From positions 1-47,902 of the forward strand of contig JAPLFL010000017.1 in the NCBI GenBank assembly GCA_026390695.1: a stretch of 47,902 nt of DNA, in the 5' to 3' direction. The position numbers and the translations under genes were made by a program. Within the stretch, counting starts at the first letter, position 1; each line of letters starts with the position of its first letter. Under the pieces are notes generated by a model. That model did no database searches. It saw only the letters and a program-made list of their open reading frames with translations, and was not told the DNA's origin. Source of the stretch: Candidatus Kapaibacterium sp. (GTDB lineage Bacteria > Bacteroidota > Ignavibacteria > Kapaibacteriales > UBA2268). Of this stretch, positions 13,196 to 45,816 are shown piece after piece.

Positions 13196-13216
13196 ATATA
13201 TCTCAAATTAAAGTTC

Positions 13217-13300
13217 ATTAAAGACATTTTCACGACGTTAGAAGACAATTCCACGATGTTGGAAGACAATTCCACGCCCTTGGAAAAAGTTTTGCAGAAC
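13217..13300. repeat. 21-bp array (type B) upstream of first YhcG
   Basis: Units at 13238 (TTAGAAGACAATTCCACGAT), 13259 and 13280 (TTGGAAAAAGTTTTGC), with a partial one before them. It lies ~25 bp before the YhcG start codon on the minus strand. The immediate flank, TTCATTAAAGACATTT, is also shared with the array ahead of the broken RhuM gene. Confidence 0.8.
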
Positions 13301-13305
13301 ATATT

Positions 13306-13350
13306 TTAATTCCCTTCAATAATCATTATCTTTATTTCAATTTATAAATC
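13306..13350 (-). pseudogene. Shortened copy of the Eco57I-gene 3' end
   Basis: On the minus strand, TTTATAAATTG followed by AAATAAAGATAATGATTATT and GAAGGGAATTAA. This aligns with the methylase tail but lacks ~15 internal bases. It sits between the RAYT gene and the array ahead of YhcG, at the same relative place as the two other copies. Similarity is weaker than for 12061-12117. Confidence 0.5.
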
Positions 13351-13390
13351 TAAAAACAAAAGCGTCAATTTCATTTTTCATTTCTGGGGT

Positions 13391-17490: not shown

Positions 17491-18544
17491 TATTTTCTTC
17501 TTTTAGTGAGAGCATTTCAAATAATTGGTGGAATTTATCGGCAAGGACTTTTTTATTAATCATTTTTGTTTCATAGTCGGCTATCATAGCTGGAGAAATA
17601 TTTCTTGACATTGCATATTCAACAACTTCCGAATCTTTTCCTTTACATAGGAGAACACCAATACTTGGGTTTTCATGTGCCCTTTTAACATCTCTATCGA
17701 GTGCTTCAAGATAAAAGTTTAATTTTCCCAGAAACTCCGGTTCAAATTCGCTTATTTTCAATTCAAACAAAACCAAACATTGTAAATCTCTGTGAAAAAA
17801 GAGTAAGTCAGTATAATAATCTTTATTACCTACCTGTAATCGGTATTGATTCCCCATGTAAGTAAAACCTTTGCCAATTTCAAGAATGAATTTATGGAGA
17901 TTTTTGATTAATGCTGTTTCTAAATCATTTTCCGAAAATGGTTCTGGTAAGTCTAAGAACTCAAAGATATATGGCTCTTTGAATAAGTCCTTTGGTAATT
18001 GTGTCATCGTTGTTGACACAATTTGATTTGCAAGCATTGTTCTTTCAAAAACTGCTGTTTTGAGTTGACGCTCTACCTCCCTTACAGATAATTTTTCATT
18101 TGCTGCTTTAAGTAAATAGAAAAGTTTTTCTTCGGATGTTTTTGTTTTTGAAAGAATATGTAAATGAGCAGACCATTGAATTTGTGTCAACAGTGTTGAC
18201 ACAAATTTGACAACATTATCTTCATTGACATTCATTTGAAATTGAACAGTAGATAAAAAGGTAGGTTCAGAGTATGTTTCAAAGAATTGTTTCATCCGGT
18301 AGAGACCCCTACGATTGAATCCAGAAATACTTGGGAATCTATTTTGAATAAATTCAGCCAATAAGCCAACAGTTTTATCACCCCAAGAACCAGCAGAAAC
18401 TCTATCTGAAACTATTTTGCCAACATTAAAATGGAGCATTATCATTTCAACATTGACTTTACTGTAAGCTCTTGAGCGAGCTGCTTCTATCAATTTTACG
18501 ATATGTTCAAAATCAACTAAGAATGGTTCGATATAATTATTCAT
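17483..18544 (-). CDS. yhcG: YhcG/DUF1016 PD-(D/E)XK nuclease (second copy)
   Basis: 353 residues with the same two-part design as the first copy: helical DUF1016 N-terminus (FNVGKIVSDRVSAGSWGDKT, FNRRGLYRMKQFFETY) and a C-terminal nuclease fold with YYTDLLFFHRDLQCLVLFEL followed by K, giving the D...ExK pattern. It has an extra segment around residues 95-125 (FQMNVNEDNVVKFVSTLLTQ). It starts 12 bp after the helicase stop and overlaps the methylase start by 8 bp, so it is an integral part of this operon rather than appended cargo. A role in DNA targeting or cleavage is inferred. Confidence 0.9.
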   Translation of the reverse strand: MNNYIEPFLVDFEHIVKLIEAARSRAYSKVNVEMIMLHFNVGKIVSDRVSAGSWGDKTVGLLAEFIQNRFPSISGFNRRGLYRMKQFFETYSEPTFLSTVQFQMNVNEDNVVKFVSTLLTQIQWSAHLHILSKTKTSEEKLFYLLKAANEKLSVREVERQLKTAVFERTMLANQIVSTTMTQLPKDLFKEPYIFEFLDLPEPFSENDLETALIKNLHKFILEIGKGFTYMGNQYRLQVGNKDYYTDLLFFHRDLQCLVLFELKISEFEPEFLGKLNFYLEALDRDVKRAHENPSIGVLLCKGKDSEVVEYAMSRNISPAMIADYETKMINKKVLADKFHQLFEMLSLKEENNG

Positions 18545-18556
18545 ACGAAATATTGA

Positions 18557-21500: not shown

Positions 21501-21859
21501 CCGGATATTAAGTCATCAATAAATTGTAGAATTCCTTTTTCAACTTCACTTGAATATTTTGCTTCTTTTATATCTTGGACAAACCACTTGAGAAATTCTT
21601 CCTTTGTTTTATCTTCATCACCAAAATATAAAAGCCCTTTTCTCTGTGCTTCAGCAAACATTTGGTCAACATTTATTCCAACCAATATCTTAATACTTTT
21701 TACATTTGCTAAATAACTTTGTAATTTAAAATAACCTGATGAACGGAAATAGCCTACGACAGCATGAAAAGCATACAAATCTTTCATGTTTTCAACTATG
21801 CCTATGAACTTATCGAATAAGTTCCTTTCATTACTATTCGTGAAAAATTTTGAGGGCAT
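18557..21859 (-). CDS. PLD-SNF2 helicase of a defence operon
   Basis: 1100 residues. The N-terminus is a phospholipase D-like nuclease domain: IHAKFYLF with HxK at 133-135 and GSSNLTEAG at 155-163. Then a SNF2-type superfamily 2 helicase: Walker A VVGLGKT (about 279-285), DEAHRYR, SATPLNNRPQDLYYQL, and C-terminal DVLSEGVNL and QRIGRVNRIG. One PLD motif is visible, so it may act as a dimer. The order helicase, YhcG, Eco57I-type enzyme, with 12-bp gap and 8-bp overlap, marks a restriction-like defence operon. It has a DISARM-like flavour (helicase plus adenine methylase plus PLD) but DrmA and DrmB are absent. It is the first gene; its promoter must lie right of 21860. Confidence 0.9.
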   Translation of the reverse strand: MPSKFFTNSNERNLFDKFIGIVENMKDLYAFHAVVGYFRSSGYFKLQSYLANVKSIKILVGINVDQMFAEAQRKGLLYFGDEDKTKEEFLKWFVQDIKEAKYSSEVEKGILQFIDDLISGRIEVRAHNSKTIHAKFYLFLPENHSEHSDGRVIMGSSNLTEAGLGIKKSPNYELNVELKDYDDVDFTIKEFQTLWEESTSILPHDIEEFKKKTHIGQKFTPYEIYIKFLIEYFGKNIDYDPDTVGDLPKTYKKLSYQIDAVNQGFQMLLEHNGFFLADVVGLGKTVVAAMIAKRFLIANGSLNTKILVVYPPAIEKNWKTTFRQFGIDRHTKFISNGRLEKIVKGEDLNYWAKEDYDLILVDEAHRYRSHTADAFGFLQRICKAPRNGDGLISGTKKKVILISATPLNNRPQDLYYQLLLFQDARRSTLPTTNLQSFFGAKIREYREIMKSDAPDISRIKEMYSSIREKVISNITVRRTRKDLSNYPKYLEDLKAQGIIFPEIAPPLPKIYKLSVKLSKLFFNTVATLTEENRICYYRYQAIRFLKTELRENYYEQAVLVSESLAGIMKTMMIKRLESSFTAFKISLQNFKNATDRMIEMFNKGRVLIAPDLRINDLMEKGFSIERIEKLILDLSIEKPRNNIFTPDDFESGFIDGLKKDSDLLEKLIIKWSKIEEDPKLEAFFKALDEELLDETKNPTGLLVIFTESTDTADYLENKIESHLNTKVLNISSKNRKKKFETIQENFDANFTGNKKDDYKILITTDVLSEGVNLHRANVIVNYDTPWNATRLMQRIGRVNRIGSVAGVIYNYNFYPSDEGDEEIKLYSNALVKLQGFHSAFGEDAKIYTHEEMVEQFELFKEGMKDDEDKRLQFLRFIREFKDNHPKEFKRIKQFPMKARTARNIKNVIKQDITESTVVFLKSPYKMEFYLVDSNKTVNYLTFLEAAQYFEANSSEPGFDIPEHHYSHVESALDLFEKDFFGASTEIIAPTDKADAISTQARKFLRDIRALTKNQDVKTACSKMIDLIDKGTFTPLPNEIKKFKLQFDKKKITYAQLDNLLLMIAKKYDAISDNEIETPEQQTEIDFNISPDIVLTETFIQ

Positions 21860-29882: not shown

Positions 29883-30806
29883 TTATATGCTCCAGTACCG
29901 GGTCTGAAATTCATTTCTTCTATTAATCACTACTTTAAATTTAACAAATTTTTAAAATCATATCAAATACACAAATTTAAAACCTACCAGCATACAAATT
30001 ACTAAATTTATTTTGATTAATTAACAGAATTGTTAAAATTAATTTCAATCAACAAGAACTGACTACCACAGCTGCTTATAAGAGTTGTAATCCAATTAGA
30101 AGATTTTACAGATTTGAAATATTAAATTCAACCTGCAAATCCTTTTCTCCGCTGCCATACAACCTCTCAAACGAATTTGTCAAAATACTGTCAAAACTCA
30201 AAACAAGCTTTCGAATTCTGATGGGTTTCGAACCCCTGTATAATTATATAATCGGTAAATTATTGTGTAATGAAATCTGCTCCAGCTGCCATGTTCCGTT
30301 TTAACATTAGCTTTGAAAATCTCTCATTCTCCGCCACCACTCTGCTTATTTCACCGTTTTGCCAAAACTCTTCAAAAAGATATGTTTCCGCACCCACAGC
30401 CATAATCCACAATTCTTAGCATTCACAGCACATCCTTATTCTGATAGACCAGTTCTGCCATATCACAGAAAACAGCCAAAAAAAAAAGCCAACTTCTGAA
30501 AAGGCTCACCAGAAGTCAGTTTTAAAAAAGTGTCAAAACTTCTGTCAAAACCGTGTTTTCAAGAAGTGAGTTAAGTCGTTGTATATAATGGGTATTAGTC
30601 GAATTTAATGGTACACCCGTAGGGTAGTGAACTTCGTGAATTTAGACAAATCTAAATGAAACTAAATAAAATATCTCTTCTTGTTTTTCAATGACTTATA
30701 TCGTTACTTCAGGAATTGAGATTAAATTATTTTTATTTGAATTAACAATATTTTGACAAAACATTCGTCAAAACTTTTTTGTGAAATTTTTATAGAAAGT
30801 GTCTCA
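29883..30806. other. Gene-free stretch before the integrase
   Basis: About 900 bases with no credible gene. A stem ACTTCTG (30492-30498)/CAGAAGT (30510-30516) lies after an A-run and is followed by TTTT, resembling a terminator, and ACCCGTAGGGT (30614-30624) is a small hairpin. GGGTTTCGAACCC near 30226 resembles a tRNA T-arm, but no cloverleaf surrounds it. An attachment site of the element is expected around here but I cannot delimit it. Confidence 0.4.
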
Positions 30807-32075
30807 ATGCAGTGTTTCTGTATTAATTATTATCTGCAAAAAGTCTCTAAAGAAAAAGACTATTATTTCATCATGATTTCGGTCGCTTGGGATAGAAAGA
30901 GGGTTCGGACAACTCTTGGAGTCCAAATGGAGAAGCGGCTCTGGGACAGCGAAAAGCAGCGTGTAAAAAGTTCTGCGAAGAATCCGCAGAAAATTAATGC
31001 CAAATTAGACGAGCTAAGGTTCAAATTACAACAATTTTATGATGAAATTGAACCTGAAGAGAAATCTCCGAATGTCCGTAGTGTAAAAGCATTCCTTAGC
31101 GCAACACTTGAAGGTCGGGAATATAAGAGGAGAGAACCCATTATTAAACCACAGAAAACATTCATAGACTATTTTAAAGATTTCTATGAAGCAACAACTA
31201 ATGGTGAAAGATTAACTCACGAGGGCAAGCCAATGAGGGAGTCATCATTCAAGAATATAAACTCTGTAATGAACCACCTTAACAATTTCATTGAAGAAAC
31301 AGGTTATGAATTGCACTTTGACACCGTTGATGAGAAGTTCTTTGGACTCTTTAACCGATATTTAGCTGACAGAAAAATAAGGAATGCAGGACAGGCGAAC
31401 ATTATCAAGGTATTGAAGACATTTATGAGGTATTGTTTTGATAAGGGAATTCACAATAATATCAGATTCTCTACCGTTCTTAAAAAATACAAGGACGAAC
31501 CCATGAAAGTAGCTCTGAATGAAGAAGAACTTAAATCTATTGAGAACTTGGAGAATCTTACACCACGATTGAGCAAAATTCGAGATATTTTTCTGGTACA
31601 AATTTATACGGGACTTAGATTTTCTGACTTGGCTAACCTAAAGTCCTCAAACATTAATTATAAAATGTCCGAGATTCAAATTTATACAATCAAGACCGAA
31701 AAACCGATACTGATACCAATTACAAACAAATTGAGGGTGATATTTGAACGGTACGACAGTAAACTGCCGATGATTTCTGGACAGAAATATAATGATGGAA
31801 TTAAAGAAGTTTGTAAGTTAGCTGGTATTGTTGAACAAGTTCAGGTTACAAGTTATATCGGTGAAAGAAGAATTGATGTGGTTAAGCCAAAATATATGTT
31901 AATCAGCTCTCATACTGCTCGTAGGAGTTTTATTACGCTGAGCCTGAAATACGGGGTGCTTGACCAGATGATAATGCAGATTACAGGGCACTCTGACCGT
32001 GCTTCATTTAATAAGTATATCCGAATTTCTCAAAAAGAGGCTATGAATGAGGTTCGTAAGGCTTGGGAAAAGTAA
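30807..32075 (+). CDS. int: Tyrosine recombinase/integrase of the element
   Basis: 422 residues from ATG 30807 (an ATG-containing open frame extends to 30753, but the family usually starts near a strand like the YYFIMISVAWDRKRVRTTLG that follows). The N-terminus has the arm-binding and SAM-like domains of Bacteroidetes integrases (KTFIDYFKDFYEA). Catalytic residues: R271 in TGLRFSDL, H369/R372 in HTARRSF, H395 in GHSDRASF and the nucleophile Y404 in NKYIRI. All are present. It would integrate and excise the element that extends rightward. It is at the element's left edge, the usual place beside an attachment site. Confidence 0.9.
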   Translation: MQCFCINYYLQKVSKEKDYYFIMISVAWDRKRVRTTLGVQMEKRLWDSEKQRVKSSAKNPQKINAKLDELRFKLQQFYDEIEPEEKSPNVRSVKAFLSATLEGREYKRREPIIKPQKTFIDYFKDFYEATTNGERLTHEGKPMRESSFKNINSVMNHLNNFIEETGYELHFDTVDEKFFGLFNRYLADRKIRNAGQANIIKVLKTFMRYCFDKGIHNNIRFSTVLKKYKDEPMKVALNEEELKSIENLENLTPRLSKIRDIFLVQIYTGLRFSDLANLKSSNINYKMSEIQIYTIKTEKPILIPITNKLRVIFERYDSKLPMISGQKYNDGIKEVCKLAGIVEQVQVTSYIGERRIDVVKPKYMLISSHTARRSFITLSLKYGVLDQMIMQITGHSDRASFNKYIRISQKEAMNEVRKAWEK

Positions 32076-34848: not shown

Positions 34849-34943
34849 AAATAATTGAAAATAATGAGCTTACATAATAATAAATCTTTTTTGCCTTCGT
34901 AATTTTGTAAAGTTGTTTGATTGAATTTAGAACTGGAGATATT

Positions 34944-35210
34944 TTGGAAAAATTAATACAGATAACAGACCAAGAAACTTTCATTTGCCAAATGAGGCAG
35001 ATGATAAGGGAAGAGCTGTATTCAATAATCAACATGAAATCACAAGCTCAGGCAGAAGATAAAATTCTTACCAGAGATGAGGTGTTGGAACTTTATCATC
35101 TCAGTCCAGTCAGTTTGTGGAAAAGAATGTGTGAAGGAAGTATCCCTCATTTCAGAATCGGAAGAAGAGTTTATTTCAAGAAAAGTGAACTCGATGCTAT
35201 TAACAATTAA
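34944..35210 (+). CDS. Excisionase/MerR-like helix-turn-helix protein
   Basis: 88 residues from TTG 34944, chosen because GGAG (34935-34938) lies just before it. The N-terminal half is a short helical region (MRQMIREELYSIINM); the C-terminal half is a winged helix-turn-helix of the excisionase family: LTRDEVLELYHLSPVSLWKR, then IPHFRIGRRVYFKKSELDAI. By family it binds DNA near attachment sites, acts as a recombination directionality factor, or regulates element genes. The paired TGCAA sites lie immediately upstream and are natural candidates for its targets (inference). Confidence 0.8.
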   Translation: MEKLIQITDQETFICQMRQMIREELYSIINMKSQAQAEDKILTRDEVLELYHLSPVSLWKRMCEGSIPHFRIGRRVYFKKSELDAINN

Positions 35211-35440: not shown

Positions 35441-36754
35441 ATGACTAACTCCTCGACACAAACTTCAGCTAATGATTTCGCCGAAGTTTTATCATTAGCA
35501 TTCCGTGGTACCGCTGGATTTGACATTGAGTCAACCATGAACAGGTTATCACAGTTTATGGACAAAAATAAATTGTCCAAAAAGCAGCTCAATACATTTG
35601 AGCAGTTTAAAAATTCTGAGATTTCTCAGGATGAGTTTCTCAAGGCCAACCAGCGCCTTATCGATTACTTGAAGAAAAACACTGATAACAACACACAGCA
35701 TGACGAAGCAAACAACAACAATTCAGAACAAGAAGAGAATTCGACACTATTATCGAAAATATTTACAAGCAACTGGAACTTTGCAACCCATAAAGCACTA
35801 AAGGACTACCCTTCTGTAAGTTCAGAAGCATACAAAGCCCTTGAGGCTGACATTCTGATGGTTGGCAAAATTCACAAGCCGATTCTTGTTTTCGGTAAGT
35901 ATATCATTGACGGTAGAGCACGAGCTGAAATTTGTAAAAAATACAAAATTCAACCTACATACCAAGAATGGTATGGAAGTGAGGAAGACTTACTTGATTA
36001 TTTGGACTCAATTCATATTCACCAGAAGGATTTGGGTAAGTCAGTCAGAGCTATTCTGGCATTTGAGAATCTTGATGATTTCAAGAAGTCTGATGAGAAT
36101 GTTGAAGGGCAGAAAAACAAGCTCAAGGGCATCAAGCCCACCAAAGGACATGACAGTTACCAGTTGGCGGCTGAATTCTATGCAACATCACGTGGTTTAA
36201 TTACTCTTGCCGGCAAGTTAGAAAAACACAAAGAGCTTTACAGAAGAGTAAGAGCCGGACAGTTCAATCTCAGTTTTGCGTTATCACTGGTCAAAGTAGC
36301 ACCAGATAATAAAGAGATATTGAACTTCATCGATACTTATAAGTTGTCCTTGGAGGCTGCAAGGAGTCTGGTCAAAATTAAAGCCGAAGACTCAGATTTA
36401 TATAATGAAATTCTTTACAAGCCAGATAAAGTTGAGGACTACATCAAGATTTTTGGCTATCGTAAGGATTACCCAGAGATTTATGATAAACTCATAGACG
36501 AAAGTATGAGTTTAGAGGATGCCAAGAAAGAGAAGCAAAAGATAATTTCTGATAAACAAGCAGCAAAAACTGCTGAAGAATCAGAAGCTACTCCTTCTGC
36601 AAAAAAAGCAGAAACAAGTTCTGTACCATTCGATATTGACGATTCTTTGAAAACAAGAATCTCTACCCTTGCACAGAAAAAAGGTAAAACTATTGCTGAG
36701 TTTCTGGAAGAACTCTTGGCAAAGGTAGAAAAACCAAGTGGAAAGGGTAAGTAA
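35441..36754 (+). CDS. ParB-like protein with C-terminal ribbon-helix-helix end
   Basis: 437 residues. The N-terminal ~110 are polar and low-complexity (NNTQHDEANNNNSEQEENST). Residues ~125-185 resemble the ParB N-terminal domain: HKPILVFGKYIIDGRARAEI, where IIDGRAR matches the ParB GxRR-like box, and then LDYLDSIHIHQKDLGKSVRA. A helix-turn-helix-like part (ATSRGLITLAGKLEKHKELY, FALSLVKVAPDN) follows. The last ~45 residues (DDSLKTRISTLAQKKGKTIA, EFLEELL) look like a ribbon-helix-helix dimer. ParB-like proteins partition DNA or act as CTP-dependent DNA clamps. GGAGG (35429-35433) precedes the ATG. Confidence 0.75.
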   Translation: MTNSSTQTSANDFAEVLSLAFRGTAGFDIESTMNRLSQFMDKNKLSKKQLNTFEQFKNSEISQDEFLKANQRLIDYLKKNTDNNTQHDEANNNNSEQEENSTLLSKIFTSNWNFATHKALKDYPSVSSEAYKALEADILMVGKIHKPILVFGKYIIDGRARAEICKKYKIQPTYQEWYGSEEDLLDYLDSIHIHQKDLGKSVRAILAFENLDDFKKSDENVEGQKNKLKGIKPTKGHDSYQLAAEFYATSRGLITLAGKLEKHKELYRRVRAGQFNLSFALSLVKVAPDNKEILNFIDTYKLSLEAARSLVKIKAEDSDLYNEILYKPDKVEDYIKIFGYRKDYPEIYDKLIDESMSLEDAKKEKQKIISDKQAAKTAEESEATPSAKKAETSSVPFDIDDSLKTRISTLAQKKGKTIAEFLEELLAKVEKPSGKGK

Positions 36755-37530
36755 TGGATTCACAATTAGTAATGCAGATAGTCAACCCGAAGTTATTCTT
36801 CGGGTTGCTAAAATTCTTCTGGAACATGGGGCTTCAGCTTGTAATGGAAATTACTGTCAATAAGAATATAGTATTCAAGGGTATTAGACAAGATATGGAT
36901 GCTATTCTTCTTGGTGAATATCCTTTTGACTCAATGTTTAAAGCTAAGAATGATATTGATTCAGAACAACCATTAATATTCTGTCCCTTACAGATTAAAA
37001 AACTCAATGAGTATCTGAAAAACTTTATTTCAGGTGTTGGTTTGGAATTAGTCTTTGAATATAGCGTTGATAACTTGAACAGATTATTCTGCTCAAAAAT
37101 GAAAATTGGGAACGAAATATTTTCAACCACAGGCGGGCAACTTATTATTCCAGCAACTCAATACAGAGAAGAATATAATGATGTTACAAGTGAAATTCTT
37201 TGTAATTCAAATAAACTACTATTCTCTTTCACACTACAACCACAAATTTTACAGAAAGTTAAAACAAATCAGGAAAATAAGCTCTCTATATTCTTGTTAA
37301 TTGTAGAAAATGGAGAATTACTCGTGTTCTCTGACAATGAGTATCAATTAATTCTGACCGAAGACTTTGTAAATCTATCTGATAAAGATGAATATATTAA
37401 AATTGACAGCAGATACCTCAGATACTTGACGTCAGATGAAGTGTATCAGGTGCAGGTTGGTACCAAATACATTCATTTCACAGCACAGTCAGATAAACAT
37501 GAAATATTCATTGCAGGAACAAGAGATTAA
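36754..37530 (+). CDS. Unknown protein, possibly sliding-clamp-like
   Basis: 258 residues; its ATG overlaps the ParB-like stop by one base, so the two are coupled. Two halves have similar strand/helix order: LQLVMEITVNKNIVFKGIRQ, FDSMFKAK and KKLNEYLKNF in the first, LLFSFTLQPQILQKVKTNQE, LSIFLLIVENGELLVFSD, YLRYLTSDEVYQVQVGTKYI in the second. Length ~250, two pseudo-repeats and acidic strands recall PCNA/gp45-type sliding clamps. This is pattern resemblance only, without a diagnostic motif; a structure prediction would decide. Confidence 0.4.
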   Translation: MDSQLVMQIVNPKLFFGLLKFFWNMGLQLVMEITVNKNIVFKGIRQDMDAILLGEYPFDSMFKAKNDIDSEQPLIFCPLQIKKLNEYLKNFISGVGLELVFEYSVDNLNRLFCSKMKIGNEIFSTTGGQLIIPATQYREEYNDVTSEILCNSNKLLFSFTLQPQILQKVKTNQENKLSIFLLIVENGELLVFSDNEYQLILTEDFVNLSDKDEYIKIDSRYLRYLTSDEVYQVQVGTKYIHFTAQSDKHEIFIAGTRD

Positions 37531-37541
37531 TTAATTCAATG

Positions 37542-37575
37542 GGGGTTTGTCTCCAATGATAAACCCCAAATTTTA
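37542..37575 (+). terminator. Terminator-like hairpin after the clamp-like gene
   Basis: GGGGTTT (37542-37548) pairs with AAACCCC (37561-37567), followed by AAATTTTAAA. The trailing T-run is weak, so it could instead be a partial attenuator before the 37596 gene. Confidence 0.45.
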
Positions 37576-37595
37576 AAATTTATTTAGGACACAAA

Positions 37596-37919
37596 ATGAA
37601 AAAGATTCAAAGATTATTCGGCGACATGAGTGATGACAGTAGTTTCAGACAACTGTACGTAAAAGAAATACTTATTCCAGCTCATTTAGATTATCAGCGG
37701 TTCAAACTCTTAGGTATGAGTGAATTTGAACTTAGAGCCTTAGCAGAACAAATCAGACTACATCTGTTAAATTTATGGGAAAAAGGGCATGGACTTTTTT
37801 CTACAAATTTATCTCAAGATGGAATATGCAGTGCAATTAAAGACCTTATCAATTATCCGGTGGAAAAGGAATTAAGGCATTTAATGGCAAAATATACCTT
37901 GACCATTCAACAAATCTGA
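37596..37919 (+). CDS. Hypothetical protein, element-specific
   Basis: 107 residues, helical, no motif recognised: MKKIQRLFGDMSDDSSFRQL, then FKLLGMSEFELRALAEQIRL, LHLLNLWEKGHGLF. It ends TGA 26 bp before the methyltransferase start. It stands among DNA-modification genes and is probably a small accessory or adaptor protein; nothing in the sequence shows what it binds. Confidence 0.5.
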   Translation: MKKIQRLFGDMSDDSSFRQLYVKEILIPAHLDYQRFKLLGMSEFELRALAEQIRLHLLNLWEKGHGLFSTNLSQDGICSAIKDLINYPVEKELRHLMAKYTLTIQQI

Positions 37920-37945
37920 ATGTTTCGAACCAGTGGTTCCCAGAG

Positions 37946-38866
37946 ATGTCGGATGTTAAGGTTAACAGTAAAAGCCTTATTGACCAGCTTCGAAACCCAG
38001 ATGTTTTTTACACAAATTTCTATGATATTATGATAAAGGACAGGCACAAACACGGTGAAAAAAGTTTGGACAGCAACTGGATTTCTGACCACTTCCTTGA
38101 TAGTTTGCGTATTGTTAGCGGCAACCAGCCTGTATTTAACTTTCCGGCAACACTCAGTAAGTTAATCTATTTGTTATATTTTACCAGAAGAAGATTAGAA
38201 GATACTTCAGAGATATACATATTTGACCCCTGTGGTGGATGGTTCGGGAGACAGACTGGTTTGATGGCTGCATTCTGTATGCCTACCTTCGAAGAAATTA
38301 AAGTGCATTACCATTGCACTGATGTAAATACAATGACAGCAGGCAGACCGGAGATGTTGCATAAGTTCTGGGACTTTTATATCAATTCCAGAATTGGTAC
38401 TGACTTTGACCTGTATAGAAGTTTTGCACCTGCTGAGAGAATTTTTGACGATAAATTCTTTCAAGACATGATTGGCAAATATGACTTTGCCTTTACAAGC
38501 CCTCCATATTTCACAAATGAAAAATACTCAGAAGATGAGAACCAGAGCTATTTGCTTTATAAAACATATCCTGAATGGAGAGATGGATTTCTCAAGGGAA
38601 TGATAAAGAATACATACGATTTACTTAAACCCGGTGCTCAGTTCTGGCTAAACATAGCAGACGTAAACACTAACAAGGGCAATCAACAATACTATCCTTT
38701 ACAAAATGACTCTGTTAGACTTGCTAAAGAATGTGGTTTTGAGCATATCGATACTTATTACATGACTCAACATCCATTCCCCGGTAATGAATCTACAAAA
38801 AACATCATTAAGATTTTGGAGAAAGAAAAAAAGTTTGAACCTATTTTCTTGTTTCAAAAGAGGTAA
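37946..38866 (+). CDS. DNA methyltransferase (SPPY class)
   Basis: 306 residues. Motif I is IFDPCGGWFGRQTG (D94), a variant of the DPFxGxG loop. Motif IV is TSPPYF (184-188), typical of N4-cytosine and some N6-adenine methylases. The end (KSTKNIIKILEKEKKFEPIF region) is the usual fold closure. No cognate nuclease is nearby. The frame upstream of the ATG (NLNVSNQWFPE) reads sensibly but has no start codon, so the N-terminus is uncertain. It is the first enzyme of the putative base-modification set. Confidence 0.8.
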   Translation: MSDVKVNSKSLIDQLRNPDVFYTNFYDIMIKDRHKHGEKSLDSNWISDHFLDSLRIVSGNQPVFNFPATLSKLIYLLYFTRRRLEDTSEIYIFDPCGGWFGRQTGLMAAFCMPTFEEIKVHYHCTDVNTMTAGRPEMLHKFWDFYINSRIGTDFDLYRSFAPAERIFDDKFFQDMIGKYDFAFTSPPYFTNEKYSEDENQSYLLYKTYPEWRDGFLKGMIKNTYDLLKPGAQFWLNIADVNTNKGNQQYYPLQNDSVRLAKECGFEHIDTYYMTQHPFPGNESTKNIIKILEKEKKFEPIFLFQKR

Positions 38867-38870
38867 TATC

Positions 38871-39683
38871 ATGAAAATCCGAGATATAAGTTTGAAATTA
38901 TTTCAGACAGATTTATTTAACGCTTCTTATTTGAGCAAAAAATATCATTTATTTGATGATAAAGTCGGATTTGAAAAAAACAGAAATTATGCTGCATTAT
39001 TTTCAGGTCAAGGTATTTTGAAATATTTACATAAATATCAGAGTCTTACAATCATTGCATTAACATTAGATGAATATGCCGAATTTAAAAAAAGTAGCAT
39101 ACCTCATCAGAAATTTAAAGAAACAAATACGATATTAGAATTCACCAAAGATTATTTTACTAATCTGACAGGTAAAACAAATAAACCTATCAGAAGCATT
39201 GTAAACAAATTCTCAAAACGATTATCTGTGAGAATGCAAACAAATCTTAATTCAGATACTGATTTTTATGAATTTATTAAAACTTGGGGAATATTGCGTA
39301 AAGAGCGGCATCATATGTTATGCACTGGGTATGATAAGAATTTCTTTGAGAAATATCTCCGTCAAAATTCAGACAATTTATTTGGATTCTATTTTTATCA
39401 TAAGGGTTCACTTATAGGCTTTTCTATAATAGAGCATGTATCGGACAATTTATTTAATCTGCTATTTCGGAAGTCAAACACAGAATTTAATGGACTGACT
39501 CAATATATTGATTATTGCTCATTCAAAAGTATTGCAGAGAAGTTCAATTCGGATATTATAGTAAACATGGGTTCGGATATGGGTGATAAGTATTTACTAT
39601 TCAACAAAACTCATTCATTTAATGTCGAAACACTTGAAATAATTACATATAAAATTAGAATAAAAAATGAGGATAAAAAATGA
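38871..39683 (+). CDS. GNAT-fold transferase-like protein
   Basis: 270 residues from ATG 38871, preceded by AGAGGTAATATC. The first ~100 residues (RNYAALFSGQGILKYLHKYQ) are unrecognised. The C-terminal ~120 look like a GNAT acyltransferase: FGFYFYHKGSLIGFSIIEHV corresponds to strand 4, followed by LFRKSNTEFNGLTQYIDYCS and SIAEKFNSDIIVNMGSDMGD. In phages and conjugative elements such transferases can add acyl or amino-acid groups to modified bases or proteins. It overlaps the next gene by ATGA (39680-39683). Confidence 0.5.
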   Translation: MKIRDISLKLFQTDLFNASYLSKKYHLFDDKVGFEKNRNYAALFSGQGILKYLHKYQSLTIIALTLDEYAEFKKSSIPHQKFKETNTILEFTKDYFTNLTGKTNKPIRSIVNKFSKRLSVRMQTNLNSDTDFYEFIKTWGILRKERHHMLCTGYDKNFFEKYLRQNSDNLFGFYFYHKGSLIGFSIIEHVSDNLFNLLFRKSNTEFNGLTQYIDYCSFKSIAEKFNSDIIVNMGSDMGDKYLLFNKTHSFNVETLEIITYKIRIKNEDKK

Positions 39684-40567
39684 AGAAAATTATCACATTA
39701 AATGAACTCACTCCGGTGGAAGAGTATAATGGTATTCTCTTCAAACGAGATGACTTATACTTACCTTTTACTGGTGAACTTGCAAATCTTGGCTGAGGTA
39801 AACTCCGCCAGATGCAAATGCTGTTAAATAGTATAAAGGCAGCTAAACCAGAAGTAAAGGGAATTATTACTTGCGGCTCTGTGCATTCACCGCAGAGTCC
39901 AATAGTTGCTAAAGTTTGTTCTGACAATCATGTCCCTTGCATTATAGGTATCGGTGGTAATATAACAAATTTAAGCAAAACAATTCAAACACACAAGTCT
40001 TTGGAAGTATCTAAAAAAGTTGGAGCAGAAATTAGAGTTGTTTCAAAATTAGGATATGATAAAACGATGATGCCTTTTGTAGAATTAATTGCAAAAGAAC
40101 TTAATTACGAAATCATAAAGTTCGGAATTAATCTGAACGAATATCCATCGGCAATTATTGATGCAATAGCAAATCAGGTACAAAATATTCCAGACCACTT
40201 AAACAATTTAATTGTTCCCTGTGGCAGCGGAATTACTTTTGCTGGTATCTTGGTTGGCATAAAAAGATTCAATAAAAAAATCGATAACATCTTTGTAATT
40301 CAAATTTCAGGCTACGACCGCACTAAATCAATTAACGAAATTCTACACAAATTCGGTATTGAGGCACGATATAAGTTCTTTATTGATTATATTTATGAGT
40401 ACACAAAAAAATGCAGGATAAGCATTGCCAGTGGTTTTGACCTCAGCGTTATTTACGAAGCGAAGGCATTTCAATATTTTACAAACAACAAAAGCATACT
40501 TGGTATCAAGGACACTGACAAATCCTTGTTCTGGGTAATTGGCAACAACAATTTTTTATATGTTTAA
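39680..40567 (+). pseudogene. PLP-dependent ACC-deaminase-like enzyme, interrupted by TGA
   Basis: Starting at ATG 39680 (overlapping the previous stop), the frame reads KRDDLYLPFTGELANLG, TGA at 39794-39796, then GKLRQMQMLL and on to 40567 without further stops. FKRDD and (G)GK-x-R form the pyridoxal-phosphate site of fold-type II enzymes (ACC deaminase/D-cysteine desulfhydrase); the Lys would bind PLP. TGA stands at the Gly two places before it, where homologues have GGK, so a GGA to TGA change is likely. A restart at 39812 would lose the Lys. ITCGSVHSPQSPIVAKVCSD and LIVPCGSGITFAGILVGIKR confirm the family. Inactive unless TGA is read through. Confidence 0.75.
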
Positions 40568-40594
40568 CTATTGTTCAATTTATTAGGAGGTCTT

Positions 40595-41707
40595 ATGAAA
40601 ACCGCAGTATTATTTTCTTTTGGTGATGAAGACAACCAGAAGTTTCACGAAACTGATAACCCGGACTTCTTGAGTAAACAGGTTATCATGTATGCAGGTA
40701 GGAAATTGTCGATTCTGAATTTTATTGAAGATAAGATTTCAGAAGTTAAGAAAAGACTTGGCAAGAACAAAATTACTGCACTTGATGGTTTTTCAGGTAC
40801 AGGTATCGTAAGCAGGCTTTTGAAGAAACATTGCAGCACATTATATTCAAATGACCTTGAATATTATTCAATGGTCATCAATCAGTGCTATCTTACAAAC
40901 AAAAGTTCGGTAAAAATATCTGAACTTCGTGAGTCAGTGGCTTTGCTAAATGAAATGAGATTACAGCCACACGAGTCCGGTTTTATTGAAGAGTTATATT
41001 CACCAAAGATAACACATCAGATAAGAGTTGGTGAGCGGGCATTCTTTACAAACGAGAATGCTAAAATTATTGACAATATCAGGCGAGATATTGATAAAGT
41101 TGCAGCACCCCAACACCATTCATTGCTTATTGCTCCTCTTCTGGCAACATTGAAAGATAAGTCCAATGTTCAGAATGTATTTCGGGCATTTTACAAGGAC
41201 ACTACTTCAAATAAAGGTCAATGGGGTGGCAACAACCCGAAAACTATTGGCAAACTGTTCCGGGATATTATTCTTGAAATACCTGTCCTGTCCGACTTTA
41301 ATTGTGAATCTGTAATTAGTTGCAGAGACACAAACAAACTTGTCCATGAATTAACGGAACTTGACTTAGCATACTTTGACCCTCCTTTTGATATTTATGC
41401 TTATGGAGAAGATTATTTCATGTATAACTTGGTTGCAAAGTATGAAAGACCTACTGAAATCACAGGTGTAGCAGGTGTTCCTATTAACTGGAACAGGTCT
41501 GCTTACAACAGCAAAACAAAAGCAGCGAGAGCTATAGCTGACCTTATGGAGAATACCAAAGCAAAATATGTGCTGTTTTCATATAGTGAAAATGGCATTC
41601 TTACAATACCAGTGCTTACTGAATTACTCAGTCAATTTGGCAAAGTTGAAGTAAGCACTTATCAGCGAACAAATTTAGAATATCTGTTTCTTATAGAAAT
41701 GATATAG
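40595..41707 (+). CDS. N6-adenine DNA methyltransferase (Dam/D12-like)
   Basis: 370 residues from ATG 40595, preceded by AGGAGG (40585-40590), the best ribosome site in the region. Motif I: DGFSGTGIVS (64-73). LYSNDLEYYSMVINQCYL is the acidic motif II region. Motif IV: FDPPF (261-265). The insertion between them is long (about 190 residues, with HHSLLIAPLLATLKDKSN), as in D12-class DNA adenine methylases. It would methylate adenine in a short site, possibly to protect the element or mark its origin. No nuclease partner is adjacent. Confidence 0.85.
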   Translation: MKTAVLFSFGDEDNQKFHETDNPDFLSKQVIMYAGRKLSILNFIEDKISEVKKRLGKNKITALDGFSGTGIVSRLLKKHCSTLYSNDLEYYSMVINQCYLTNKSSVKISELRESVALLNEMRLQPHESGFIEELYSPKITHQIRVGERAFFTNENAKIIDNIRRDIDKVAAPQHHSLLIAPLLATLKDKSNVQNVFRAFYKDTTSNKGQWGGNNPKTIGKLFRDIILEIPVLSDFNCESVISCRDTNKLVHELTELDLAYFDPPFDIYAYGEDYFMYNLVAKYERPTEITGVAGVPINWNRSAYNSKTKAARAIADLMENTKAKYVLFSYSENGILTIPVLTELLSQFGKVEVSTYQRTNLEYLFLIEMI

Positions 41708-41745
41708 TTTTTTTTACTCATTTATTTATTGGGGGCTAATAAAAA

Positions 41746-41862
41746 ATGAAGAAACTTATAAAATGGTTTGATAGTTCATAAAAGAGCTTTGAAGAATATG
41801 TGTATCATGATAAATACAAGATTTATCAAGCAAAAATATCGGCTAATAAATATTACCAGTAA
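41746..41862 (+). pseudogene. Small gene interrupted by TAA
   Basis: ATG 41746 follows GGGGG (41731-41735). The frame reads MKKLIKWFDSS, TAA at 41779-41781, then KSFEEYVYHDKYKIYQAKIS and ANKYYQ to TAA at 41862. The second half has a coding look (many E/Y/K with normal codons), so a ~38-residue protein with one nonsense change is likely. No family recognised. It sits between the adenine methylase and the acidic protein gene. Confidence 0.4.
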
Positions 41863-41929
41863 TCAGTTTATTGATAAGTAGCAAAATACCTAAAATACAA
41901 TTTAATTAATTTTTGATGGAGTATTAAGA

Positions 41930-42526
41930 ATGTCAAAAGTAAATGATTCGGCTTCTGATATTAATCAGGAAATATCACAAAAAATAGATGTCAGTTTGAA
42001 TGAAGGGGTTAATGATATGAACGATGTTTCAAATCAAAATAATCCAGATGCTTACAATGATTTCTTTCAATATATTAGCTCATTTATTTCTTCAAAATGT
42101 GAAGAAACTGATGTTAATATGGAAGATTTAGAAAATGAATCACCTATAAGTGAATGGTGGTTAGAGGATATAGAGTTCAGTAAATTTCTATTTGATTTTT
42201 TAGTTTATCCTGCTGAACAACCAATCATTTTTAGCGCTATGTCTAAACTAATGGAAGGTACTTTAGACGGTTTCGATTTATCTAAACCCATTTCTGTTTA
42301 TGTACTCAACTGCCTGAATAAAAATCTCAAAATTACGGTTAAACTTCCCTTAAAAACTTGGAAACTGGATTTTATACTTAATCAAGTTGCCCAAGCAATA
42401 TTTTTTATTGATAAGTATGGAATCAGAGATAAAGGCATGATATTTTTTAAAGGCTTAAAGTTTGATTACATTGCAGTATGTTCAAGAAATAGAATCTTTA
42501 TTACTATTGATAATGGATTAAATTAA
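41930..42526 (+). CDS. Acidic hypothetical protein
   Basis: 198 residues. The first ~55 are Asp/Asn/Ser-rich and disordered-looking (SASDINQEISQKIDVSLNEG). The rest is probably globular with Trp and Phe (SEWWLEDIEFSKFLFDFLVY, LNKNLKITVKLPLKTWKLDF, KYGIRDKGMIFFKGLKFDYI). It is strongly acidic overall, so a DNA mimic or protein-binding role is conceivable, but no motif supports a function. GGAGTATTAAG precedes the ATG. It is followed by a terminator-like hairpin. Confidence 0.5.
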   Translation: MSKVNDSASDINQEISQKIDVSLNEGVNDMNDVSNQNNPDAYNDFFQYISSFISSKCEETDVNMEDLENESPISEWWLEDIEFSKFLFDFLVYPAEQPIIFSAMSKLMEGTLDGFDLSKPISVYVLNCLNKNLKITVKLPLKTWKLDFILNQVAQAIFFIDKYGIRDKGMIFFKGLKFDYIAVCSRNRIFITIDNGLN

Positions 42527-42575
42527 TTCATAATTCAATAATGAGTCCATTTGCTTGAAATACAACATATAGGAT

Positions 42576-42610
42576 GCAAAAGTCCTTAGCAACTCTCTCA
42601 GGGCTTTTGC
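42576..42610 (+). terminator. Hairpin after the acidic protein gene
   Basis: GCAAAAGTCC (42576-42585) pairs with GGGCTTTTGC (42601-42610), 9 of 10 paired. The following bases are TTCTTC rather than a pure T-run, so termination would be modest. Confidence 0.5.
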
Positions 42611-42759
42611 TTCTTCAATAACTTAATTCCAGTCAATCCTCAACTCTTTTAATATTAGCTATTGTTTAGTACATAACAGATATAAAAGTCAGACAGGAAC
42701 GAAGATAATTAATATTGGAATTGGAAAAATTATTTTTTAACTATTTACAGGAGATTTTT

Positions 42760-43422
42760 ATGGGTTTAAACAAATCAAAGGGCAATATGTACCCATTTGT
42801 AAACAGCACCTATAACACGGTCAAGGGCTTATGTAGCCATGACTGCTCATATTGTTACATGAAACGCTGGAAGAACCAGAAAGCGGTTCGGTTCGATGAA
42901 AAAGAACTGAAAACAGATTTGGGACGTGGCAATTTCATATTCGTTGGTTCATCGAATGATTTATTTGCAGAATCCATCAATTCAGAATGGATTAGCAAGA
43001 CCTTAGAGCACTGCTCTAAATTCAATAACAAATACCTGTTTCAGTCAAAGAACCCTGAAAGAATGAAGGACTTCATTAACGAGTTCCCCGAAGATACTGT
43101 TCTTTGCACCACTATTGAAACAAACAGGTATTTCCCTAATATCATGCAAAATGCTCCTCTGCCAGAAGAAAGAGCAAAAGCAATGGCTTCGATTATAGAA
43201 TTTGAGAAACATATCACGGTTGAGCCGATATTACGATTTGACCTTGTGGAGCTGGTGGAACTAATCAGAAGTTGCTCAGTTTCTCAAGTAAATATCGGAG
43301 CTGATTCTGGTGGACATCATATGCCAGAGCCATCAAAAGAACATGTTGTTGCACTTATACAGCAGCTGGAGCAATTTACAAATGTCTATCAGAAAAAGAA
43401 TCTGAAACGGTTGTTGAAATGA
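42760..43422 (+). CDS. Radical SAM protein (DUF5131/phage Gp37-like)
   Basis: 220 residues from ATG 42760, preceded by CAGGAG (42748-42753). CSHDCSYCYMKRW carries Cys 25, 29 and 32, the CX3CX2C site for the [4Fe-4S] cluster and S-adenosylmethionine. VGSSNDLFAESINSEWISKT, YLFQSKNPERMKDFINEFPE and HITVEPILRFDLVELVELIR follow the course of short phage-type radical SAM proteins (DUF5131). After the stop TGA the same frame stays open, apart from one more TGA, to 43552 (coding-like QHQIKKFIDALNMISKQINS). The chemistry is unknown; beside methylases, a PLP enzyme and a GNAT-like protein it may act on a DNA base. Confidence 0.75.
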   Translation: MGLNKSKGNMYPFVNSTYNTVKGLCSHDCSYCYMKRWKNQKAVRFDEKELKTDLGRGNFIFVGSSNDLFAESINSEWISKTLEHCSKFNNKYLFQSKNPERMKDFINEFPEDTVLCTTIETNRYFPNIMQNAPLPEERAKAMASIIEFEKHITVEPILRFDLVELVELIRSCSVSQVNIGADSGGHHMPEPSKEHVVALIQQLEQFTNVYQKKNLKRLLK

Positions 43423-43668: not shown

Positions 43669-44847
43669 ATGAAGAAACAACCTCAAAAAACATCTGCTGA
43701 TGAGCAGGTCGAACATACTGAATACTTCACTAAATTTCTAAACAGATTCTTCCATACTCCATGGTTTGATAAACCCAATTATTTAGCTGTCTTTATGCAT
43801 CTTTTAAAGAATGTAAATTGGCATGAATCTTCTATTATTTACGACAATCGAAATTTAACAATTGGTATCGGTGAATGTGTAATCTCTCAATTGGACATTT
43901 CAAAAACTCTAAAAATTTCTATCGGTTCTGTAAACGAAATTCTTAAATATTTCGAGCGAATCGGGGAAATTCGAAAACGGAGCACGAACGCATTTACAAT
44001 TATATCAATTACTTACTTGAATGAAAAATTAAAAGTCGAAAGCGCAGTGAAAACGGAACGAAAACGGAGTGAAACATCCATAGATAATAAGATAAAAAAG
44101 CAAGAAGAGAACGAAAATTTAATTTACATTGTTGAAGAAGAAGAAATGAATTTAAGAATTAAACCAGAGTTAAATGAACTTAAAGAAGAAATATCTGTTG
44201 AAGCAGATATAGCAACAATAGGTACTAAAAGTAATGGAGCAATTCAAGTAAATAAATCTGTTGAAGTAGATATAGCAACGGAAGGAGCAAGAAGTAATGG
44301 AGCAGTTCAAGTAAATGAATCTGTTGAAGCAGATATAGCAACAATAGGTACTAAAAGTAATTGAGCAATTCAAGTAAATAAATCTGTTGAAGAAAACTTA
44401 GCTTACAAAGTTGTTGAAGCACCTAAACATGATACAGCTTCAAAACTAACTAAAGCCAAAAAAGTAATTCAAGTAAATTCAGTTGAAGAACAAGAATACA
44501 AACAAATTTTACTTAACATCTGGGCGGAAGAATATCTTGTAGCTAAAGGTTTAAAATACGTTGTTTCGCATGTTAAGGACATTGGCGGCATTTCAGAGCT
44601 TTTGCTCTTATTTAAGTCTGAACATCCAGACTTAGACTCACAGGGCATGATAGAGCATTTTAGAAATTTCTGTAAACAAGTATTTGTAATTAAAAACCAG
44701 TTTATTTATAATAATTGTAACCCAATGTTTATCAGGACTCAAATCAATACAGTTCGTTTAGAACTAAAAGGTACAAGTAAAAGAAAATCTTATTCATCTG
44801 TTGGACAAGCTCTGGCAGGTGGTGATTATAGTTTAACTTTAAAATAA
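43669..44847 (+). pseudogene. Replication-initiator-like winged-helix gene, interrupted by TGA
   Basis: 393 codons in one frame with a single TGA at 44362-44364. The N-terminal ~130 residues are a winged-helix: FHTPWFDKPNYLAVFMHLLK, IGIGECVISQLDISKTLKIS, IGSVNEILKYFERIGEIRKR, as in phage/plasmid replication proteins that work with a DnaC-like loader. A middle of three 21-residue repeats follows; TGA replaces the GGA (Gly) of the third repeat. The C-terminus (ILLNIWAEEYLVAKGLKYVV, FIRTQINTVRLELKGTSKRK) is intact to 44847. The DnaC-like gene starts 11 bp later. Either a single nonsense change or readthrough; the first 231 residues alone could keep DNA-binding activity. Confidence 0.65.
44197..44385 (+). 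repeat. Three 63-bp in-frame repeats (21 residues each)
   Basis: Units at 44197, 44260 and 44323 encode VEADIATIGTKSNGAIQVNK plus S, with few changes. Units 1 and 3 are nearly identical at DNA level, the main difference being GGA (44236-44238) versus TGA (44362-44364). A fourth divergent unit (VEENLAYKVV) may follow. Confidence 0.85.
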
Positions 44848-44858: not shown

Positions 44859-45476
44859 ATGAAACCTCAAGAAATAAAAAAAATAATGGAAGAAGTAAAT
44901 TCAGATGGACTCAGCTTAGATGAGTTACTTGTAAATATTGGCAAAAGACTTGAGCCAAAATTTGAAATTAATGCAGATAACTCAGAATATTATAATCAGT
45001 TGAAATACTACTTTACAAACGATAGTAGGTTCAATGGTGACCTAAATAAAGGGCTGCTTTTGGTTGGTAATAATGGCTCAGGTAAAACATTAGCTTTAAC
45101 TATATTTCAGATAATAACTTTAATAAAAGATAAAGGGAACTTTTTTATGATGTATGATACTGATGAAATAATCGATGAATTTACCAAATACGGACGTCCA
45201 AGTATAGAGCAATTTAACAATTACGGAGATATTGCAATTGACGAACTTGGTCAAGATTCTGGTCTTCATAATTTCTTCGGTACAAAGGAAGACCCAACAG
45301 AATTGTTACTGAGTCGGAGGTATATTGTTTTTAAGAGCAATGGATTCAAGACACACTGTATATCAAATCTTGATGCCAATGCACTTCAAGAACGATTCTC
45401 ACCTAAAATTTATGACAGAATTTGCGAAATGTTTAATTTGATGCCATTTGTTGGTAAATCATGGCGGAGGAAGTAA
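44859..45476 (+). CDS. DnaC-like AAA+ helicase loader
   Basis: 205 residues. Walker A GLLLVGNNGSGKTLAL (GNNGSGKT at ~72-79), Walker B IAIDELGQ, sensor region THCISNLDANALQERFSPKI and the arginine-containing YDRICEMFNLM, the course of DnaC/IstB-type ATPases. It has no IstB transposase partner, and it follows the initiator-like gene in the same direction by 11 bp, so a helicase loader for replication of the element is the better reading. The ~55-residue N-terminus would contact the replicative helicase, as in DnaC (family knowledge). Confidence 0.8.
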   Translation: MKPQEIKKIMEEVNSDGLSLDELLVNIGKRLEPKFEINADNSEYYNQLKYYFTNDSRFNGDLNKGLLLVGNNGSGKTLALTIFQIITLIKDKGNFFMMYDTDEIIDEFTKYGRPSIEQFNNYGDIAIDELGQDSGLHNFFGTKEDPTELLLSRRYIVFKSNGFKTHCISNLDANALQERFSPKIYDRICEMFNLMPFVGKSWRRK

Positions 45477-45545
45477 TAAGCAGAACTTCTATTGAACATT
45501 TTCTTTTTCTCTAACTCAAACAAGTAGAATGAAAGTTCAATTTAT

Positions 45546-45816
45546 TTCGTTCATAACTCAAATCCTTGAGTAGGAGCAATGTTTGTGAGTATTAATACTC
45601 AACTAATAAGAATAGTTCTTTTAAACACGTTTGGTGAGTTCCATTCTATACCAGTATGAACAATTTCACTTTCAAAAACTGAAACAAGAAGAATGAAACT
45701 GCAATATATTTCGTTCATAACTCAAATCCTTGAGTAGGAGCAATATTTGTGAGTATTAATACTCAACTGATAAGAATAGTTCTTTAAAACACATTTGGTG
45801 AGTTCTATTCTATATT
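45546..45816. repeat. Two direct copies of a ~108-bp noncoding repeat, 164-bp period
   Basis: Copies begin TTCGTTCATAACTCAAATCC at 45546 and 45710 and stay nearly identical to GGTGAGTT(C/T)(C/T)ATTCTATA. Each contains ACTCAAATCCTTGAGT, the perfect palindrome GAGTATTAATACTC, and AACTRATAAGAATAGTT. No frame is coding. It lies directly after the helicase-loader gene, so an origin, partition site or small-RNA pair is possible. The boundary on the right precedes the 45961 gene by ~145 bp in which I see nothing else. Confidence 0.8.

Follow-up and report, generated by a model that had tools for sequence, protein, structure and literature searches.

What does a compact run of genes behind an integrase in Candidatus Kapaibacterium sp. 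make, and can this copy still make it? The stretch analysed here, called the window throughout, is contig JAPLFL010000017.1 at its full length of 47,902 nucleotides (nt), one whole contig of a draft assembly (GCA_026390695.1; 4.63 Mb in 129 contigs), and the genes in question occupy positions 35441 to 43422. A first-pass annotation had proposed that a ParB-like protein, a possible sliding clamp, an SPPY methylase, a GNAT-like transferase, a pyridoxal phosphate (PLP) enzyme, a D12-type methylase and a radical S-adenosylmethionine (SAM) protein together form a DNA base-modification pathway on an integrative element, akin to phage thymidine hypermodification. Our analyses favour, with a probability of about 0.6, a DNA-base hypermodification cassette on an integrative element whose copy in the window is inactivated or mis-sequenced. 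We read the cassette this way because DNA modification is what most of the lineages carrying these genes have in common.

The cassette genes all lie on the + strand, downstream of a tyrosine recombinase and an HTH_17 protein (Table 1), and it is the integrase that makes the region a putative integrative element. The tight one-strand arrangement described earlier was recovered from the ParB-like gene to the D12 gene: the ParB-like gene and the next gene, for a 258-aa protein, share a single base (36754), the methyltransferase (MTase) and GNAT genes are 4 nt apart, GNAT and PLP overlap at 39680-39683, and 27 nt separate PLP from the D12 ATG (40595). It did not extend to the radical-SAM gene, as D12 ends at 41707 and an open reading frame (ORF; 41930-42526) intervenes before 42715. 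Because this gene order recurs in other genomes, we consider the set to be more than a chance assembly. The MTase-profile relatives come from metagenome-assembled genomes (MAGs) named uncultured Ignavibacteria and Candidatus Kapaibacterium, and relatives of the window GNAT were found in 4 other genomes (5 of 60 searched, its own included), 3 of which carry the cassette. The most complete relative, locus L010, runs ParB, 258-aa protein, MTase (424 aa), GNAT, PLP (295 aa), D12, two small ORFs and DUF5131; L011 runs ParB, MTase, GNAT and a PLP gene cut by the contig end, with the 258-aa gene absent; and in genome G009 one contig (L013) has the MTase followed by a single 844-aa GNAT-PLP-GNAT fusion protein, another (L014, G009:C444) combines ParB with a split MTase and a double GNAT, and a further one (L018) has ParB and MTase. 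The MTase-GNAT-PLP order is thus common to the window, L010 and L011, ParB stands upstream of the MTase in the window, L010, L011, L014 and L018, and these four genes make up the steady part of the cassette; the 258-aa protein, D12 and DUF5131 were seen only in the window and L010. The fusion in L013 is the best evidence that the PLP and GNAT enzymes act together. Across the phylum the GNAT profile matched 2 of 296 genomes, its own and one weak match, and the MTase profile matched 44 of 395 (E<=0.001), near full length only in its own genome, with the two next-best matches lying upstream of terminase-looking genes (judged by eye) and without PLP or GNAT profile matches.

The first-pass annotation had suggested seeking the same gene set elsewhere, and viral contigs yielded MTase, PLP and GNAT-type partners in several combinations. 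The PLP profile alone retrieved 60 viral loci (18 clusters at 90%, 12 at 70%), which within 1.5 kb carried an MTase (6), MTase and GNAT (1), radical SAM (6), radical SAM and ParB (7), ParB (1) or none of these (39). By 70% cluster the corresponding numbers were 3 with MTase, 1 with MTase and GNAT, 4 with radical SAM, 1 with ParB and radical SAM, 1 with ParB and 2 with none, such that an MTase or radical SAM gene lay within 1.5 kb of the PLP gene in 9 of 12 viral lineages and a tenth (L192) had only a ParB-cluster protein lacking a Pfam match. Viral ParB and radical SAM proteins were assigned by blast cluster, and Pfam, run on selected loci, gave Radical_SAM at E 5.8e-7 and one of two ParB_N proteins above the cut-off in L165, and MTase matches above the cut-off in L188 and below it in L167 and L180. 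Several of these sets adjoin replication genes: L167 runs MTase-PLP-GNAT, then a gp45 clamp (E=8e-11) and a gp44-type loader (both by Pfam), L188 has PLP-MTase ahead of a clamp loader (Pfam), and in L178 and L179 MTase and PLP follow clamp- and clamp-loader-cluster genes (by blast cluster) and precede genes that we take to be gp62 and regA. One lineage of 33 loci (L134-L155, L158-L163, L171, L172, L176, L177 and L187) has a solitary PLP gene, the 1.5 kb on either side being free of MTase, ParB and radical SAM genes.

Starting instead from the MTase profile alone, we found 73 viral loci (18 clusters at 90%, 4 at 70%), of which 12 had PLP only, 7 had GNAT plus an AspH-type oxygenase, 2 had all three and 52 had none within 5 kb; a PLP gene was therefore near 14 of 73, GNAT-type plus AspH-type genes near 9, and any partner near 21, amounting to 8 of 18 clusters at 90% and 2 of 4 at 70%. 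Since it was neighbours in these 73 loci that supplied the sequences for the second PLP, small-GNAT and AspH profiles, the count describes the neighbourhood and is no test of it, and some missing partners are not real because contigs end close to the MTase. The sets present in viral contigs include MTase-PLP, MTase-PLP-GNAT and MTase-GNAT-AspH oxygenase, and the gene after the viral MTase, PLP or other, often abuts it. The AspH type corresponds to PF05118 (E 7.6e-11 in L043, whose order is MTase, AspH-domain protein, PLP; 1.1e-8 in L052), and the small GNAT type, tested in L022, gave sub-threshold Pfam GNAT matches (best 8e-4). L040 and L034 have, behind the MTase, a PLP gene (profile E 2e-62), a gene without assignment and one for a spermidine-synthase-like protein; the last, in L040 at 5299-5937 (E 1.3e-7), stands two genes behind MTase-PLP and could supply an aminopropyl group. 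The unassigned third gene of L040 (358 aa) was considered as GNAT-like and set aside, no match supporting it. Scans of the viral contigs with the window GNAT alone and with the window PLP fragment alone gave no relatives. The second PLP family (phrog_7093 type) matched 339 viral loci, and among the best 80 of these an MTase lay within 3 kb in 52 (43 of the 50 flanked by 2 kb or more on each side), or by cluster in 15 of 19 at 90%, 3 of 4 at 80% and 2 of 2 at 70%; MTase and PLP frames abut in 22 of those 52 loci, and the small GNAT or AspH profile was within 3 kb in 0 of 80.

Cultured phages carry related genes. A search of 50,697 phage records gave PLP relatives in 276, and 247 of these belong to Salmonella, Klebsiella, Escherichia or Dickeya phages. 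In mycobacteriophage Vincenzo, gp1 is an N6_N4-type MTase (E 3e-5, below the Pfam cut-off) with an N-terminus that looks ParB-like by eye, and gp2, which overlaps it, is a PALP-family PLP enzyme. The window MTase itself is weakly related to proteins of 22 named phages (up to 31% identity), those of DAC16 and PMS2 having neighbours mostly annotated as hypothetical and without a PLP profile match, and the window GNAT has no relative among the named phages. Phage LilMcDreamy presents a parallel set, with gp1-gp4 being ParB-like (by annotation, no Pfam match), Tet/JBP-like (E 0.002, sub-threshold), ADDT (E 2.7e-12) and AspH-type (E 1.5e-10), the last related to the viral AspH proteins at E 5.7e-42. 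Its gene at 855-1787 (locus L127) is annotated as a queuine tRNA-ribosyltransferase, a likely misannotation given that the sub-threshold Tet_JBP match is its sole Pfam match, and gp3, the ADDT protein, is annotated as hypothetical.

Turning to the proteins themselves, Pfam matches bore out the SPPY methylase, the D12-type methylase, the radical SAM protein and the PLP enzyme of the first-pass annotation (Table 1), with the qualification that the first of these genes is split in two frames and the last starts at 39680 and carries an in-frame TGA. The PALP match of the window frame at 39812-40567 (E=2e-5) is below the Pfam cut-off and that of the intact L010 relative (E=6e-12) above it; the nearest solved sequences are the ACC deaminase 1j0a (E=4e-4) for the PLP enzyme and the putative modification methylase 2zie (E=5e-4) for the MTase. 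The GNAT-like protein (38871-39683) has no Pfam match, and an AlphaFold2 model built from 8 sequences (predicted local distance difference test, pLDDT, 89.5) confidently predicts a tandem-GNAT fold of the FemX/MprF type. Compared with solved structures in VIA-align, the model gave Z scores of 19.2 for 2hqy (unknown function), 15.7 for MprF, 14.7 for Sbb17 (9wqw; an aminoacyl-tRNA-dependent peptide synthase) and 13.9 for FemX (6snr), and the matches to the last three span 228-237 residues and show two GNAT domains in the FemX/DUF2156 arrangement. Enzymes that use acetyl-CoA score similarly (range 12-14; 13.9 for glucosamine N-acetyltransferase and 12.2 for mycothiol synthase), so the fold cannot separate an aminoacyl-tRNA from an acetyl-CoA donor. 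Among viral structures, a myovirus protein that is itself uncharacterised matched best (TM 0.75), and matches of the GNAT profile to PDB sequences (best E=8e-4, an isoprenoid enzyme) covered a short stretch and were left unused.

How does this compare with known modification systems? Phage thymidine hypermodification reportedly combines PLP, radical-SAM and acyltransferase enzymes, and the likeness drawn earlier to these systems (5-(2-aminoethoxy)methyldeoxyuridine, 5-NeOmdU, in ViI and 5-aminoethyldeoxyuridine, 5-NedU, in M6) held for the PLP enzyme, which is of the same family as Vi01_182 of phage ViI (window-family profile E 6.7e-23), presumably the PLP enzyme of the ViI pathway. Unlike in those phages, the first place in the cassette is taken by an MTase-fold enzyme, and no Pfam match to a 5-hydroxymethyldeoxyuridine (5hmdU) kinase, an aGPT-PPlase/ADDT or a dUMP hydroxymethylase was found in ten cassette-region proteins, the other window ORFs having been partly scanned. 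The proposal of a base-modification pathway thus stands insofar as comparative genomics points to hypermodification, and we reject its thymidine (5hmdU) route, for which no kinase or transferase matched among the proteins scanned. That ViI DNA carries 5-NeOmdU is stated in PMC6449724. A further parallel is CmoX/CmoY carboxymethylcytosine, in which, according to PMC12783734, an MTase-fold enzyme defined by an SPPC motif installs a handle for later tailoring and ParBc proteins are often close by; the cassette shares the MTase-fold enzyme as putative handle-installer and has a weakly ParB-like neighbour, with SPPY in place of the SPPC of that account. SPPY was present in 5 of 5 bacterial MTase rows and in the viral homologues, which never had SPPC (fragments and the weak match L092 showed no such motif). 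The host genome has a single CmoA match, which scores 31.7 bits where the cut-off is 193.3 (a level exceeded in 1 of 14 control genomes), and no AMP-forming ligase matched among the ten cassette-region proteins scanned. We accordingly rejected membership of the CmoX group on the motif, CmoA and ligase results, and carboxy-SAM chemistry is unlikely because the motif is SPPY, not SPPC, and no host CmoA scored above the cut-off. Momylation by Mu Mom, a GNAT-superfamily tailoring of a base (PMC7824862), resembles the cassette in its GNAT step, and differs in that the cassette GNAT is of the tandem FemX/MprF type and has PLP and MTase partners. The TET/JBP plus ADDT set of LilMcDreamy has ParB-like and AspH-type partners that the MTase sets also use, but its handle would come from an oxygenase and an amino acid:DNA transferase (going by family name) and not from an MTase. 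We found no MTase-PLP-GNAT DNA-modification set described in the literature, with prior description possible in Iyer 2013, Lee 2018 or a later hypermodification paper.

What the analysis shows directly is gene content and order, the relatives, the fusion, the GNAT fold and the lesions; from the parallels above we infer DNA as the substrate and, with it, the order of the steps, the base, the donor and the protective role. The ParB-like protein and the MTase-fold enzyme would bring the machinery to DNA and install a first group on a base, most likely, judging by the SPPY motif, on an exocyclic amine, either cytosine N4 or adenine N6. The PLP enzyme might next make or reshape an amino-acid-like group on the modified base, and the tandem-GNAT enzyme might cap its free amine by acylation or aminoacylation, with aminoacyl-tRNA as a possible donor, as in FemX and MprF. 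Phage versions would add or swap in an AspH-type oxygenase, a small GNAT or a radical-SAM enzyme, and the modified base would protect the DNA of the element or phage against restriction. Because the LilMcDreamy ADDT protein, which going by its family would supply a DNA-linked amino acid, neighbours an AspH-type protein, the AspH, GNAT and PLP enzymes may act on amino-acid groups linked to DNA; in the MTase sets, the MTase, the PLP enzyme or both would then have to make the amino-acid group on DNA. Pushed further, this becomes a speculative and, taken whole, improbable proposal of a widespread class that would serve integrative elements, T4-type phages and mycobacteriophages and be partly wired into the replication-clamp cluster, in which a SAM-dependent MTase-fold enzyme would put an amino-acid-bearing group on an exocyclic amine (3-amino-3-carboxypropyl from SAM, or an alanine-like group with the PLP enzyme, are candidates), PLP, tRNA-dependent tandem-GNAT and AspH enzymes would trim, extend or hydroxylate it, and DNA would carry amino acids or short peptides.

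Can the window copy work? Two core enzyme genes, MTase and PLP, are broken as assembled. The MTase, a single frame in L010, L011 and L018, is in two frames here, its first ~90 residues apart from the remainder. The PLP gene opens at 39680 and meets an in-frame TGA (39794-39796) two residues ahead of the catalytic lysine, at a site where 76 of 77 aligned homologues have Gly and the other a gap (the window sequence was left out of this alignment), so that the lysine, which follows a GG/NGG loop and is present in 76 of the 77 as well as in L010, L011 and L013, is not translated; the ORF from 39812 lacks it. A functional copy, its lesions being assembly or sequencing errors or recoding, would be compatible with the hypermodification reading and was weighed apart from it; we consider it rather unlikely. 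The draft state of the 129-contig assembly speaks for it, as does the related MAG contig L014, whose MTase is also split between N-terminal and catalytic parts at a different position in the gene. Decay, assembly error and programmed frameshifting are candidate causes of the splits in both MTases. Two kinds of lesion in one operon argue the other way, as does a third gene, for a DnaD-like protein, which stops at an in-frame TGA within a 63-nt tandem repeat; the remaining copies of the repeat are read through (the frame is open to 44847). Recoding of TGA we rejected: TGA terminates 5 of 27 window genes, including the GNAT and radical-SAM genes, whose L010 relatives end at about the same place, and the suspect DnaD-like stop, and is therefore an ordinary stop here. 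The lesions may be real decay or assembly errors, and, because the MTase and PLP genes are interrupted, protection of the element from restriction by this copy, as once suggested, is doubtful.

Several further observations weigh against the hypermodification cassette. Besides the interrupted genes, its chemistry is something we infer, and two of its supposed members are weaker than first described. For the ParB-like protein, a ribbon-helix-helix (RHH) domain (E=0.009 in the window, 2e-4 in L010) was found and the expected region did align to viral ParB-type proteins in hhalign, weakly (E=0.029, probability 1.7%), but neither the window protein nor its L010 relative matched a Pfam ParB domain; the sliding-clamp identity of the 258-aa protein is unproven and found no support, with no Pfam, PHROG or PDB-sequence match, no significant profile match to viral gp45-cluster proteins and a low-confidence model (pLDDT 37). 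D12 and radical SAM are looser members and not constant, neither D12 nor DUF5131 being present in the 2.1 kb left after the fusion gene of L013. Of the 73 viral MTase loci, 52 lack the partners looked for, and the 39 viral PLP loci without tested neighbours include the 33 of one lineage, whose solitary PLP gene makes us doubt a strict link to partners, and the viral PLP linkage counts stand without a background rate for PLP genes beside unrelated viral genes, the D12 viral scan that was partly meant as one having given a single locus. The counts for the second PLP family support the association without giving an independent rate, because its seeds came from MTase-linked loci and some matches are the same contigs. 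Sequence homology between the viral GNATs and the window GNAT was not detectable, and the GNAT label of the N-terminal domain in L043, L052 and LilMcDreamy was given by eye, with no Pfam GNAT match. A distant PLP homologue (24% identity) lies in a sugar/lipopolysaccharide (LPS) cluster on two E. coli plasmids.

Could the set be solitary methylases of the restriction-modification type (SPPY and D12) beside a chance metabolic PLP/GNAT pair, making only ordinary methylated bases? The D12 protein does resemble type II methylases (PADLOC MTase_II E=2e-85) and FokI/LlaI-type phage methylases, its only relative in the viral contigs (L196) has no PLP nearby, and the 52 of 73 viral MTase homologues without partners would fit. 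That lone viral relative, with the absence of D12 beside L013, led us to reject D12 as a core member. Among seven cassette proteins run in PADLOC (the 198-aa ORF left out), the matches were to methylases and, for the radical-SAM protein, weakly to the candidate families PDC-M41B and PDC-M30B, and none was a restriction enzyme; this, the MTase-PLP linkage repeated in several viral lineages and in Vincenzo with genes often abutting, and the GNAT-PLP fusion leave this explanation with only a small chance. The substrates of MprF, FemX and Sbb17 are lipids, peptidoglycan precursors or an antibiotic rather than DNA. A cargo pathway acting on small molecules, peptides or RNA/tRNA through a PLP enzyme and a tRNA-dependent aminoacyltransferase, with the methylases as passengers, could draw on that shared fold, on the PLP relative that shares a sugar cluster with GNAT and ATP-grasp genes, on the solitary viral PLP lineage and on genome G020, whose GNAT (L012) has no other cassette parts in 20 kb, but we give it little credence since pairing with DNA MTases, ParB-type and replication genes recurs in viral contigs.

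Table 1. Features of the cassette and its flanks in the window.
Feature	Position	Strand	Evidence
Tyrosine recombinase (Phage_integrase, Arm-DNA-bind_5)	30753..32075	+	Pfam E=8.9e-13
HTH_17 (excisionase-like) protein	34917..35210	+	Pfam E=4.1e-8
ParB-like protein with C-terminal ribbon-helix-helix	35441..36754	+	RHH E=0.009; same place in L010, L011, L014
258-aa protein, no assigned fold	36754..37530	+	also in L010, 34% identity
SPPY MTase N-terminal piece, out of frame with the rest	37596..37919	+	MTase profile E=8e-6
SPPY MTase catalytic part (TSPPYF)	37946..38866	+	PF01555 (N6_N4_Mtase) E=2.4e-8; 76% identical to L010
Predicted tandem-GNAT (FemX/MprF-like) transferase	38871..39683	+	structure model pLDDT 89.5
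PALP (fold type II) PLP enzyme gene, interrupted	39680..40567	+	PF00291; stop-free relatives L010, L011 (to contig end), L013, L040
In-frame TGA of PLP gene	39794..39796	+	
D12-type N6-adenine DNA methylase (DPPF)	40595..41707 (listed ORF from TTG 40571)	+	PF02086 E=3e-17; 63% identical to L010
198-aa ORF	41930..42526	+	no Pfam or PHROG match
DUF5131 radical-SAM protein	42715..43422	+	Pfam E=8.6e-10; homologue downstream of L010 cassette
DnaD-like replication protein	43669..44364	+	PHROG 2514 E=2.5e-11

Elsewhere on the contig, a defence island at 12128-21859 holds a Type IIG restriction-modification protein (14062-17490), an HKD plus Snf2 helicase (18557-21859) and two ORFs that we take to be DUF1016-like, and a direct duplication of 158 nt (90%) lies at 45493-45814, behind a P-loop-like ORF (44859-45476). 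On the two E. coli plasmids with the distant PLP homologue (IncR plasmids, L128 and L129), GNAT, PALP and ATP-grasp genes stand in a row within a cluster for deoxythymidine diphosphate (dTDP)-sugar/LPS-like synthesis, a metabolic setting.

If the hypermodification reading is true, one enzyme set (MTase, PLP and GNAT, with an optional AspH oxygenase or radical SAM enzyme) would make undescribed DNA bases both in bacterial elements and in phages of several kinds, a function would be suggested for two PLP families found in 60 and 339 viral loci, and an integrative element would join the bacterial genomic islands known to make modified bases. Vincenzo carries an apparent minimal version, ParB-MTase plus PLP, and because it is a cultured phage of a laboratory host (M. 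smegmatis mc2 155), the identity of the base is directly testable there.

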